From Cetobacterium sp. NK01 (GTDB taxonomy: Bacteria > Fusobacteriota > Fusobacteriia > Fusobacteriales > Fusobacteriaceae), in assembly GCF_024506395.1 (NCBI RefSeq), contig NZ_JANIBO010000002.1, positions 186,001 through 250,000 on the forward strand: a stretch of 64,000 nucleotides of DNA. The letters are read 5' to 3'. Every line of letters begins with the position of its first letter. Positions within the stretch are counted from its first letter, which is position 1. The translations under genes and the position numbers were made by a program. Under the pieces are notes generated by a model. That model did not search any database and was not told where the DNA came from. It worked only from the letters and a program-made list of their open reading frames with translations. This document shows positions 32,499 to 37,570 of the stretch, piece after piece.

Positions 32499-32540
32499 AA
32501 AAAGCTCTCTTTACTAAATCATTAGTAAAGAGAGCTTTTT
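32499..32540 (-). terminator. terminator of hydE-hydG-hydF
   Basis: Perfect 19-bp stem (AAAAAGCTCTCTTTACTAA and complement) with a 4-base loop, immediately after hydF. Confidence 0.9.
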
Positions 32541-33726
32541 ATTTAAATATTTCTAAAGATTTATCTAAAATTCCAGTCACTTCTGCTATAACTAATCCAT
32601 AGTTAGTTATAGCTACATTTGCAGACATCGATTCATCTATTCTACTTTGCATTAATTTTTTATTTATCATACATGCCCCACAATGAACTACCAAAGCATA
32701 CTTTGATAAGTCTTCTGGAAAATCTTTTCCACCCATAAAAACAAATTCAATTTCTTTCCCAGTAAATTTTTTTATTAATTTTGGTATTTTCACTCTTCCT
32801 ATATCTTCATGAGATGTATTGTGAGTACAAGTTTCTGCAATTAATATCTTATCTCCATGATTTAAAGATTTAAGTTTTTTTACACCTCTAACTAAATCCT
32901 CTAAATCTCCCTTTTGTCTAGCAAAAAGAATTGAAAAGCTTGTTAATTTAACTCTATTATTTAAAATTTTATCCACATTTTTAAAAGCTTGAGAATCTGT
33001 TACAACTAAATCAATATCTCTAATATCTTCCAAAGCACTTTCTAATTCAGTATCCCTTACAACATAACTTTTTATTCCATGGTCAAGACAATCTCTTATA
33101 AGTTGAACTTGAGGGAGTATTAATCTTCCTTTAGGAGCTTCTGAATCCACAGGTACAACCATCAAAACTTTTCCATCATAGGGAACTAAATCTCCTAAAA
33201 GTTTAGGCTCTTCTTTTTCTTTTTTTATCTCTTTTAAAATATTCTCTTTTAACTTCAAAATCGAATCTCTATCTTTAGTTGAAACAAAAATAGCTTTTGG
33301 AAAAACTCCTCTTATAATCTCTTTTTCATCCTTCGATAAAAGGTCCTCTTTATTTAATACAAATATAAATGGAATATTATATTTTTTCAACTGATGTTCT
33401 TGTTCTTTATAAAATTCTATATCAATTTTTGTAGCATCCATAACTAAAATGGCGAAATCAGTTCTTTTTAATTCTTCTAAAGTTTTTTTTACTCTTAACT
33501 TTCCAAGAGGTGTATTATCCTCTAATCCAGCAGTATCTATAAATAATACTGGCCCAAATGGTAAAAATTCCATAGCTTTTACTACAGAATCAGTTGTAGT
33601 TCCTTCAATTTCTGAAACTATCGCTATATTTTGCTCTGTAATAGCATTTAAAAGAGACGATTTTCCAGAGTTAGTTTTTCCAAAAATCCCTATATGCAAC
33701 CTATTTGAATTTGGGGTATTTTTCAT
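32539..33726 (-). CDS. hydF: HydF, [FeFe] hydrogenase maturation GTPase
   Basis: 395 residues. GTPase domain with P-loop GKTNSGKSS (16-24), DTAGLED and NKED. C-terminal cluster-binding domain with the HydF motif CxH (ETCTHNT) and HCGAC, supplying Cys for the [4Fe-4S] cluster. It is the scaffold that carries the 2Fe subcluster to apo-hydrogenase. Nine bases after hydG; last gene of hydEGF. Confidence 0.96.
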   Translation of the reverse strand: MKNTPNSNRLHIGIFGKTNSGKSSLLNAITEQNIAIVSEIEGTTTDSVVKAMEFLPFGPVLFIDTAGLEDNTPLGKLRVKKTLEELKRTDFAILVMDATKIDIEFYKEQEHQLKKYNIPFIFVLNKEDLLSKDEKEIIRGVFPKAIFVSTKDRDSILKLKENILKEIKKEKEEPKLLGDLVPYDGKVLMVVPVDSEAPKGRLILPQVQLIRDCLDHGIKSYVVRDTELESALEDIRDIDLVVTDSQAFKNVDKILNNRVKLTSFSILFARQKGDLEDLVRGVKKLKSLNHGDKILIAETCTHNTSHEDIGRVKIPKLIKKFTGKEIEFVFMGGKDFPEDLSKYALVVHCGACMINKKLMQSRIDESMSANVAITNYGLVIAEVTGILDKSLEIFK

Positions 33727-33735
33727 AAGCTCCTC

Positions 33736-35127
33736 CTAAAGATACAAATCTCTCTCTCCATTTTTTATTTTTTCTAATTTCTCTAAAGTTAATATTTTAA
33801 TATCTTCTCTTTTTATATTTTCTATCTCTCTTGCTATAACTTTTTCAACTTTTTCTGTTAATTCTAAATCTCCATAATCCACAGCATATTCCATTAAAGT
33901 CAACAATGCATTTGGTGAACAAACATTTTGAATATTTCCACTTTTAGCTAATTGCATAAATCTATCTCCTGTTCTTCCCATTCTATAGCATGCTGTACAA
34001 TAACTTGGTATACAATCTTGATCTAAAAGTTCTTTCAGTACCTCTAAAGGTGTTCTATGATCAGCTAACTCAAATTGTGTCTGAGTTTTACCTTCTTCTC
34101 TGTCTGTATATCCTCCAACATCAGCAGAAGATCCTGCACTTATTTGAGAAATTCCATATTTTATTAACTCTCTTCTTAACTCAGCAGTTTCTCTCGTTGA
34201 AAGAATCATTCCAGTAAATGGAACAGCTAATCTTATTATGGCCACAATATTTCTAAATGTATCATCATCTATTTGATGAGGATATTCATCTAAACTCATT
34301 CCTTCAGCTTTTTTTATTCTAGGTACAGATATTGTATGGAATCCTACTCCATAATGCTTTTCTAAATATTCATTATGCATCATTAACGCTATAATTTCAA
34401 ATTTATAATCTGCTAATCCAAAAAGAACTCCTGCACCAACATCATCTATTCCACCTTCCATTGCTCTATTAAAAGCAGTTAAATGATATTCATAATCTCC
34501 TTTTAGAGATTTAGGATGAACTTTCTCATAAGTTGGCTTATGATATGTTTCTTGAAATAAAATATATGTCCCTATTTCAGCATCTTTTAATTTTTTATAA
34601 TTTTCAACTGTTGTTGCTGCAATATTTACATTTATTCTTCTTATAGAACCATTTTCAAATTTAGTTGTATAAACTGCATCAATAGCTTCTACTACATAAT
34701 CAATAGGTACATTTACAGGATCTTCTCCTAATTCTAAAGCAAGTCTTTTATGTCCCATTTTTTCCAATAATTTAACTTCATTTTGAATTTGCTCTCTAGT
34801 TAATTTTTTTCTTGGAAATTTATTGTCTCTTTTGTATCCACAATATGTGCAGTTATTTACGCAGTAATCACTCACATAAAGAGGTGCAAAAACAACTATT
34901 CTATTTCCATAAATTGATTTTTTTAACTCTCCTGCAATTTCATAAAGTCTTTTTTTTTGATTTTCATCTTTTATCTGTAAAAGAGATGCAACCTCTTTAT
35001 GTGTTAATCCCTCTTTATTACTGGCTTTATCTAATATTCTATCTATCTCTTTATAATCTGTTATTTTAGATTCTTCTAATAGTTTTTCTATATACTCTTG
35101 ATCAATAAAATTTATTTTCTTTTCCAT
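33736..35127 (-). CDS. hydG: HydG, radical SAM tyrosine lyase
   Basis: 463 residues. Radical SAM CxxxCxxC at C89, C93 and C96 (CVNNCTYC) and the C-terminal second-cluster motif CTACYRMGRTGDRFMQLAKSG followed by C. Cleaves tyrosine to give the CO and CN ligands of the H-cluster. The start lies inside the last 16 bases of hydE, with GGAG ten bases before it. Confidence 0.96.
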   Translation of the reverse strand: MEKKINFIDQEYIEKLLEESKITDYKEIDRILDKASNKEGLTHKEVASLLQIKDENQKKRLYEIAGELKKSIYGNRIVVFAPLYVSDYCVNNCTYCGYKRDNKFPRKKLTREQIQNEVKLLEKMGHKRLALELGEDPVNVPIDYVVEAIDAVYTTKFENGSIRRINVNIAATTVENYKKLKDAEIGTYILFQETYHKPTYEKVHPKSLKGDYEYHLTAFNRAMEGGIDDVGAGVLFGLADYKFEIIALMMHNEYLEKHYGVGFHTISVPRIKKAEGMSLDEYPHQIDDDTFRNIVAIIRLAVPFTGMILSTRETAELRRELIKYGISQISAGSSADVGGYTDREEGKTQTQFELADHRTPLEVLKELLDQDCIPSYCTACYRMGRTGDRFMQLAKSGNIQNVCSPNALLTLMEYAVDYGDLELTEKVEKVIAREIENIKREDIKILTLEKLEKIKNGERDLYL

Positions 35128-36158
35128 CTGACATTATCTCCTCTTGTTAGTACTGGCTGAAAACCAGCTTCTAAAATGCTATTTTCAATTTTTAGTTTCT
35201 CTTCTGCTGATTCTTTTCCTAAAAAAACTTTTCCGTTGTACAAAGTATATTTTTTCCTGCATTCCATGGGAGAAAGATTAGGCATAATTACGTTAGCTCC
35301 TGCTTTAAACCCTTTTTCTCTTCCTTTAGGATCTATTGTTCCTAAAGCAGTTGTTGCTGGCAATAATACATCTGGTAAAAGAAGTCTTATTATTGCAAGT
35401 AAAGTAATGGTATCATAAGCAGTTCCTCCTTTTTCATTTTTTAAAGGAGTATCTTCATGTGGAATAAATGGACCTATCCCTACCATATGTGGCCTAAGTT
35501 CTTTTAAAAAAATTAAATCTTTAGCGTAGTCTATCAGTTTTAAATTGGGTAATCCTATTAAAAAACCGCTTCCCACTTGATATCCTATTGCTTTAAGAGA
35601 TTCTAAACATTTTTTTCTATTATCTAAAGACATACTTGGGTGAAGTTCTTTATAAAGTTTTTCATTCACTGTTTCATGCCTCAATAAGTATCTATCTGCT
35701 CCTGCTTCATACAATCTTTTAAAAGACTCTTCTCCTCTTTCACCAAGGGAAAGGGTAATAGCTATATCTGAATATTTATTTTTTAAAGTTTTTATTATAC
35801 TTTCTAAAAGTTCATCAGAAAAATAACTATCTTCTCCGCCTTGAAAAACAAAGGTCCTATATCCTAGGGAATATCCTCTATAACAACATTCTAAAATTTC
35901 ATCTTTAGACAATCTATATCTATTAGCTTTTTTATTAGAAGCCCTAATACCACAGTAAAAACAATCGTACTTACATATATTAGAAATTTCTATTAATCCT
36001 CTAAAAAAAACAGTATTTCCATAATATTGTTTTCTTACTTCATATGCTTTATCTATTAAATAATCTCTATCCTCTTCTGTTAGATTAGTAAGTAATATCT
36101 CTAACTCTTCTTGTGATAAATCATTTTCCATAGATAATTTATCTATTAAATACCTCAC
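35112..36158 (-). CDS. hydE: HydE, radical SAM maturase of [FeFe] hydrogenase
   Basis: 348 residues. CxxxCxxC at C62, C66 and C69 (CKYDCFYC), GGEDSYF SAM motif, and IGPFIPHEDTPL, typical of HydE. Contributes to the dithiomethylamine bridge and diiron precursor. GTG start is supported by GGAGG at 6 bases; the first ATG nine codons later has no site. First gene of the operon behind its own promoter. Confidence 0.95.
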   Translation of the reverse strand: MRYLIDKLSMENDLSQEELEILLTNLTEEDRDYLIDKAYEVRKQYYGNTVFFRGLIEISNICKYDCFYCGIRASNKKANRYRLSKDEILECCYRGYSLGYRTFVFQGGEDSYFSDELLESIIKTLKNKYSDIAITLSLGERGEESFKRLYEAGADRYLLRHETVNEKLYKELHPSMSLDNRKKCLESLKAIGYQVGSGFLIGLPNLKLIDYAKDLIFLKELRPHMVGIGPFIPHEDTPLKNEKGGTAYDTITLLAIIRLLLPDVLLPATTALGTIDPKGREKGFKAGANVIMPNLSPMECRKKYTLYNGKVFLGKESAEEKLKIENSILEAGFQPVLTRGDNVRWKRK

Positions 36159-36233: not shown

Positions 36234-37214
36234 TTATAACAATGGAATATTTTTAGCTTTACATTCCTCTATCACTTCTTGTGGCCATAAAGAGGCCTGA
36301 ACTTCTCCTATATGTAATTTATCTAAGAAGAATAGGCATAATCTTGATTGACCAATTCCCCCACCTATTGTATATGGTAACTCTCCTGCTAAAAGTTTTT
36401 TATGAAACTCTAACTCTTTTCTTCCTTCTGCTCCTGCTATCTCCAATTGCTTGGCTAAAGATTCTTCTGATACACGAATTCCCATTGATGATAACTCTAA
36501 ACCTATTTTTAACGGTTCATAATATACGATTATATCTCCGTTTAAATCCCAATCATCATAATCAGGTGCTCTTCCATCATGTTTCTCTCCTGACTCTAAA
36601 ACCTTTCCTATTTCACTTATAAATATTGCTCCATGTCTTTTTGCATGTTCATGCTCTCTTTCTTTTGGAGTTAATTCTGGATATAGCTTTTCTAATTCTT
36701 GTGAAGTTATAAAAGTTATTTCTTCTGGTAATTTTTTTGAAAGTTGAGGATAGATATCTCTAATATAACTTTCTGTATCTTTTAATGAACTATATATTTT
36801 TTTTACAGTTTCTTGTAAAGTTTCAGTTGTTCTATCGTCCTTTTCTAAAACTTTTTCCCAGTCCCATTGATCTACATAATATGAGTGAATCGGACTTAAA
36901 TCTTCATCTCTCCTAATTGCGTTCATATCTGTATAGAGACCTTTTCCAGAGTTAAAACCATATTTATGAAGAGCCATTCTTTTCCATTTTGCTAAAGAGT
37001 GAACTATCACTGCATCTTGTTTACACTTTGTATCAAAAGCTACAGCTCTTTCAATACCATTTAAATCATCATTTAAACCACTTTCAGGTGTCACGAATAA
37101 AGGTGCTGAAACTCTTGTTAAATCAAGCTTTTTAGCTAAATCTCTTTCAAAGAAATCCTTTACTTCTTTAATTGCAATCTCTGTTTCCATGATATCTAAC
37201 TTTGTCTTATACAT
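36234..37214 (-). CDS. asnA: aspartate-ammonia ligase (asparagine synthetase A)
   Basis: 326 residues from the ATG after GGAGGTAGTATT, close to the usual 330; an upstream in-frame ATG would start inside the attenuator terminator. Class II aminoacyl-tRNA-synthetase-like fold: [28 protein letters not shown], and the C-terminal [14 protein letters not shown] motif. Makes asparagine from aspartate, ammonia and ATP. Preceded by an asparagine-rich leader peptide and an intrinsic terminator, so expression is probably attenuated by asparagine supply. Confidence 0.96.
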
Positions 37215-37239
37215 AATACTACCTCCAATTTTTTTATAA

Positions 37240-37286
37240 AAATAAAAAACTCTTAACATCTCCATTAGCGGAAATAGTTAAGAGTT
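37240..37286 (-). terminator. intrinsic terminator (attenuator) in the asnA leader
   Basis: On the minus strand a 10-bp stem AACTCTTAAC/GTTAAGAGTT, a bulged T, a further 6-bp stem ATTTCC/GGAGAT, a 6-base loop, and TTTTTTATTTTT. It lies between the leader peptide and the asnA ribosome site. The sequence AATGTTAA just upstream (around 37295) can pair with TTAACTATT of the 5' arm, a possible but weak antiterminator. Confidence 0.85.
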
Positions 37287-37359
37287 CTAATTTAACATTA
37301 TATAATACATCTACTTAAAGATGCACATAAATAAATTTACTTAAATCAAATAAATCTAC

Positions 37360-37491
37360 CTAAATTAAATTTAAATTCTTTTTTATTTCAAGATAACGGA
37401 AATTATTCATCACAAATTTCAATAAATTATTATTGTTATTATTGTTATTATTATTACAATTATAATTATTATTATTGAAATTTATAGACAT
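37360..37491 (-). CDS. asnA leader peptide, 43 aa, asparagine-rich
   Basis: Small gene in the region that would otherwise look empty. ATG preceded by GAGGAGGAAGTT; 43 codons; TAG stop. The peptide begins MSINFNNNNYNC, then ten consecutive Asn (codons 13-22, AAT or AAC), then LLKFVMNNFRYLEIKKNLNLI. Twenty of 43 residues are Asn. It sits between a consensus promoter and an intrinsic terminator upstream of asnA, as leader peptides of trp or his operons do. Ribosome stalling on Asn codons when charged tRNA-Asn is scarce would be the sensor. The mechanism is inferred; the reading frame, ribosome site and terminator are seen. Confidence 0.8.
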   Translation of the reverse strand: MSINFNNNNYNCNNNNNNNNNNLLKFVMNNFRYLEIKKNLNLI

Positions 37492-37534
37492 AACTTCCTC
37501 CTCTTTTTAAAAATTTATTTTTATTATTGGACTA

Positions 37535-37563
37535 ATAATAAAACTTTTTTGTAAAAATGTCAA
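37535..37563 (-). promoter_or_regulatory. promoter of the asnA leader and asnA
   Basis: On the minus strand TTGACA, 17-base spacer, TATTAT: nearly perfect sigma-70 consensus. Start of transcription near 37528, giving a ~310-base leader before asnA. Confidence 0.88.
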
Positions 37564-37570
37564 GTTTTTT

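Follow-up and report, generated by a model that had tools for sequence, protein, structure and literature searches.

A probable asparagine leader-peptide attenuator ahead of asnA in Cetobacterium and other Fusobacteriota

The region upstream of asnA in Cetobacterium sp. NK01 very probably encodes a ribosome-mediated attenuator that adjusts asnA transcription to the supply of charged tRNA-Asn. A leader frame with a run of asparagine codons, segments for mutually exclusive antiterminator and terminator helices, and asnA downstream of them are all present in the sequence. We propose that, when asparagine is plentiful, the leading ribosome would pass the Asn codons, reach the stop codon and cover the 5' strand of the antiterminator (AT5); the terminator would then form, and transcription would stop short of asnA. 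A shortage of Asn-tRNA would stall the ribosome within the Asn run, before it reaches AT5, leaving AT5 free to pair with the 3' strand (AT3), which holds the left arm of the terminator; RNA polymerase would then read into asnA. Inner hairpins would bridge the long gap between the two antiterminator strands.

The genome has AsnRS, and AsnB above the cut-off is absent from it. Since AsnB-type asparagine synthetases above the cut-off were found only in genera without asnA, AsnA is likely to be the sole source of asparagine here, which makes tRNA-Asn charging a sensible signal for such a switch.

Layout of the leader and its asparagine codons

The stretch examined comprises 356 bases (37215-37570) on the minus strand of the window, by which we mean the whole 64,000-nucleotide piece of the 3.1-Mb genome that was analysed. 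The earlier note had described a near-consensus promoter, a ribosome site and an Asn-rich frame closed by a TAG stop, and each of these was read at the expected place (Table 1). The leader frame of one genome of the genus (G005) is only partial, a contig end cutting it. Downstream of asnA, at 32539-36158 on the minus strand of the window, lie HydE (TIGR03956) and two HydG-/HydF-like genes, a hydrogenase-maturation cluster.

Table 1. Features of the asnA leader region, with positions in the window; RNA helices are predicted.
Feature	Position	Strand	Observation
Sigma-70-type promoter, TTGACA-17-TATTAT	37535..37563	-	11/12 consensus matches; aligned and similar in ten Cetobacterium leaders
Ribosome-binding site of leader frame, GAGGAGG	37497..37503	-	direct reading; GGAGG retained in relatives
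Leader frame MSINFNNNNYNCNNNNNNNNNNLLKFVMNNFRYLEIKKNLNLI, 43 codons, 20 Asn, stop TAG	37360..37491	-	shared by all 11 genomes of the genus that have asnA
Ten consecutive Asn codons	37426..37455	-	sole AAYx6 place in the genome; AAT and AAC mixed
P0, long hairpin round the Asn run: GGAAGUUAU with AUAAUUUCC, UAAAUUUCAAUAA with UUAUUGAAAUUUG	37398..37498	-	
AT5, antiterminator 5' strand, within the end of the leader frame	37364..37389	-	
P2 hairpin, between AT5 and AT3	37305..37326	-	92% of cells paired; both-side changes at two pairs
AT3, antiterminator 3' strand, overlapping the left arm of the terminator	37271..37296	-	
Intrinsic terminator hairpin, 17 pairs	37247..37287	-	-19 kcal/mol, z -7.3 against shuffles
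Terminator U tract TTTTTTATTTTTAT	37236..37249	-	direct reading
asnA ribosome site, GGAGGT	37226-37221	-	
asnA, aspartate--ammonia ligase (product asparagine)	36234..37214	-	TIGR00669, 335.7 bits, cut-off 292.8

The Asn codons of the leader are 18 AAT and 2 AAC; the genome was covered by pattern searches for at least six consecutive Asn codons (AAYx6). In the Asn cores of 32 leaders we counted 285 AAT, 34 AAC and no AAA or AAG, the latter two being the remaining third-base changes, a pattern suggesting that selection in the core acts on asparagine itself. The region ahead of asnA thus holds a short frame rich in codons for the amino acid that the gene's product makes, as seen from the Asn share of its codons, its good ribosome site and third-base changes that are synonymous only. 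The longest Asn run ranges from 3 to 12 codons per leader; theory predicts that many control codons together with a long leader give steep attenuation (PMC1183508).

The same codons bear on two other explanations. The leader might report a property of NAY-decoding tRNAs (for example the queuosine of tRNA-Asn) or general translation speed in place of asparagine supply, as the large excess of AAT over AAC and the few Tyr codons breaking the run would allow. We regard this as improbable, because Asn codons alone dominate, the controlled gene makes asparagine, and an AT-rich genome would favour AAT in any case. It is hardly credible that the run arose by chance as an AAT microsatellite, or encodes a small functional protein, with a terminator that serves an upstream gene: AAT repeats do arise easily in AT-rich DNA, and Asn runs within longer proteins exist elsewhere in the family, but the run before asnA is unique in its genome, recurs at the equivalent place in eight genera, changes synonymously, comes together with the terminator and is preceded by a promoter. 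The conserved peptide flanks INF and LLKF, which might point to a small protein, are accounted for by the P0 helix.

Long stretches of Asn codons elsewhere in the family were rejected as leaders: they lie within longer proteins or lack a start codon. One locus (L171, G008:C3:309500-314500) has 21 consecutive Asn within a 92-residue frame for a small membrane-like protein, and this frame argues against a leader.

P0 occurs in the lowest-energy fold of 11/11 leaders, and its base takes in the start codon and some of the ribosome site. Its inner helix carries U-A for C-G, changed on both sides, in the leader L041 from another genus. P0 may pause RNA polymerase or, once a first ribosome has passed, shut the ribosome site. 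On the 3' side of the Asn run the reading frame drifts among relatives, being shifted in L033 and having differing stops, which would be tolerable if the RNA is what counts there.

Terminator, antiterminator and the position of the ribosome

The rho-independent terminator before asnA is present as the earlier note had it, with one pair more than the 16 bp given there. In the leader alignment 97.5% of its cells are paired and four pairs are changed on both sides, and together with P2 it reaches 95.8% of cells paired and six both-side-changed pairs in the ten-leader alignment. The whole leader RNA has a folding z of -6.7.

The predicted antiterminator joins GAAAUAAAAAAGAAUUUAAAUUUAAU, the last ~26 nt and final codons of the leader frame, to GUUAAAUUAGAACUCUUAACUAUUUC, which includes the left arm of the terminator. 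When the RNA ends just before the right arm of the terminator, nearly all leaders fold into the antiterminator. In the ten-leader alignment, the antiterminator, P1 and P2 have 92.5% of cells paired against at most 52% for slid versions, and both partners have changed in four pairs, of which two belong to the antiterminator itself; compensatory changes are fewer there than in the terminator. In L041, the letters are quite different and a duplex is possible at the antiterminator position. The short antiterminator drawn in the earlier note, AATGTTAA with TTAACTATT, has 5 pairs in the window, is broken in L035 and L038 and was dropped as only partly kept among relatives; the longer one fits better. 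The coupling across the gap of ~125 nt between the Asn run and the antiterminator first drawn, which the earlier note had left open, would be provided by an antiterminator 5' strand that is itself the end of the leader frame.

Folding with the ribosome in place agrees with this in 11/11 leaders: 8-12 of the 18 terminator-arm bases are paired upstream when the ribosome sits at the final Asn codon of the run, and 0.5-6 of 18 when it sits at the stop codon. Mean arm pairing falls in every leader when the 5' strand is shuffled, with p of only 0.01-0.27 per sequence because AU-rich RNA pairs easily, and the duplex energies of the antiterminator are close to shuffled ones in several leaders. Single-sequence duplex statistics are weak against this AU-rich background, so the argument for the antiterminator rests on conservation. 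The terminator is locally the more stable of the two, and the antiterminator must therefore form first. An antiterminator with its 5' strand at the frame end is probable, at moderate support; the conserved alternative helices and the folding in 11/11 leaders suggest, with moderate statistics, that it would exclude the terminator and depend on where the ribosome stands.

Under the classical logic of trp, a stalled ribosome would instead break P0/P1 round the Asn run and free a downstream strand, and an untranslated leader would terminate by default. P0 and P1 are conserved and flank the Asn run, and the full untranslated leader folds with its terminator formed, as that logic would have it. We nevertheless think it unlikely, though not remotely so, because RNA cut before the right arm forms the antiterminator in most leaders with no ribosome present (4.7-12.4 of 18 arm bases paired), and because the stop codon lies within AT5 or ~10 nt from it in ten of ten Cetobacterium leaders, which fits masking of AT5 by a ribosome that finishes the frame.

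Distribution across Fusobacteriota and a second structural class

AsnA was found in 78 of 98 Fusobacteriota genomes, and the region upstream of each asnA was taken, 80 regions in all; one of the loci (L025) could not be scored, its contig being masked there. An Asn-run frame precedes asnA in 33 genomes of eight genera. The long Asn-rich frame is found in the asnA-bearing genomes of the window's genus and in a single genome from each of genera g2 and g11. Part of genus g4 and genera g5, g13 and g14 have a shorter Asn frame, whose run mostly leads into Met-(Ser/Arg)-Gly-Phe or a sequence close to it, and L069, from another family of the class, carries MKTVVTSIANNNNL. No Asn frame precedes asnA in family f4 or in several Fusobacteriaceae (g3, g6 and part of g4).

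A single detector (-12 kcal/mol or better, within 260 nt) found a terminator in 34/35 asnA regions with an Asn frame versus 0/45 without, counts whose rows are related and hence are not independent events, the pattern being seen in several lineages of the AsnA tree. Taken with the z-score of the hairpin and its compensatory pairs, this co-occurrence identifies an intrinsic terminator between frame and gene. Across genera, an alignment of the asnA upstream regions, the check that had been suggested, retains the Asn frame and the terminator with compensatory pairs. The joint occurrence of the two, the synonymous AAT/AAC changes and this conservation argue for the original reading of the region as an Asn-rich leader attenuator.

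The exception among the regions with a frame is L062, from a partial metagenome genome (G056), where the Asn frame abuts the asnA ribosome site and the helices and terminator region are absent, through either a natural deletion or an assembly fault. Among Fusobacteriaceae, asnB above the family cut-off occurs in G041-G043, G046, G050 and G052, only in genomes without asnA, and in G041-G043 and G046 it lies directly upstream of asnS, sharing its contig and strand. In the relatives that lack asnA, a search ahead of asnB found no Asn leader.

Leaders of some relatives (g4 and g5) belong to a second structural class, built from different helices. They can be divided into four segments, with segment 1 in the end of the frame, followed by 2 and 3, and with segment 4 in the left arm of the terminator. 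Helices 1:2 and 3:4 have 95.3% of cells paired and the alternative, 2:3 with the terminator, has 94.2%, both with compensatory changes; slid versions stay below 50%. In this short class, a stalled ribosome would leave segment 1 free, so that 1:2 and 3:4 form and the gene is on, and a ribosome at the stop codon would mask segment 1, so that 2:3 and the terminator form and the gene is off. The direction of the folding difference agrees in 13/13 leaders, the difference being small in some, and in genus g14 equilibrium folding does not tell the two states apart.

The AsnA tree requires seven label changes for presence of the leader, and a single origin of the Asn leader is not supported. We hold it to be an evenly balanced question whether two things are true together: that a finishing ribosome covers the antiterminator strand in the frame end, leaving asnA on without translation, the reverse of trp, and that Asn leaders of unlike RNA structure may have arisen more than once in the Fusobacteriota.

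Relation to known attenuators and T-boxes

Leader-peptide switches are known for several amino acids other than asparagine. The asnA leader shares with the trp, his, leu, thr and phe attenuators of Proteobacteria a translated leader rich in the product amino acid, alternative helices and a terminator before a biosynthetic gene. It differs in amino acid, gene and phylum, in having 20 control codons in 43, and in an antiterminator strand that is the end of the coding frame and is predicted to be masked by the finishing ribosome. The four-segment layout of trp (codons in segment 1, antiterminator strand past the stop, termination as the untranslated default) does not describe it, because AT5 is part of the coding frame, ahead of the stop, and ribosome-free folding favours the antiterminator. 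The trp/his-type layout first proposed for this region thus stands for its elements, the Asn leader, terminator and antiterminator, and not for its wiring, in which the finishing ribosome, and not a competing RNA segment, is the predicted blocker.

The His leader of Bacillus hisS/hisZ is a further case of a leader peptide beyond the Proteobacteria and Actinobacteria, and relatives have a T-box on that gene; it differs in amino acid, gene and phylum (PMC2965389); that paper makes no mention of Asn or of Fusobacteria. The Asn T-box before asnA of Firmicutes (RF00230) is a tRNA-responsive element on the same gene, but it binds the tRNA directly, with no need of a translated frame. Its covariance model matched neither the window nor any of the scanned Fusobacteriota asnA loci, and as a positive control Rfam recognized T-boxes before asnA in seven of nine scanned Firmicutes loci; no Asn leader was found before asnA among the Firmicutes loci examined. 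When the leader and those of the relatives were compared with Rfam families, none matched the leader.

As the earlier note had supposed, no previous Asn leader peptide came to light in the full text of open-access papers, attenuator surveys included; a relevant 2010 subscription survey (Lopatovskaya and colleagues) lies outside this scope. From its sequence and conservation, the element appears to belong to the leader-peptide attenuators, among which its amino acid, gene, phylum and wiring are new.

The genome of the window has a likely His leader, MSLLFVVLNSLHHHHRY, with a ribosome site (L192, contig C1 near 1873809, minus strand), followed by alternative helices, the terminator GCCATCTAGATACATTCTAGATGGCTTTTTT and a protein resembling an amino-acid ABC-transporter binding protein. 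In another genus (L175, G054:C2:785500-788800), a closely similar terminator precedes a similar transporter protein, and then a short frame with an ATA run. This likely His leader, standing ahead of an amino-acid transporter, suggests that control by leader peptides is general in this group.

If our reading is right, leader peptides sense asparagine as well as the amino acids known before, and this type of control reaches into the Fusobacteriota. One gene, asnA, would then have T-boxes ahead of it in Firmicutes and leader peptides here, and the placement of the antiterminator inside the coding frame yields a sharp prediction opposite to that for trp.
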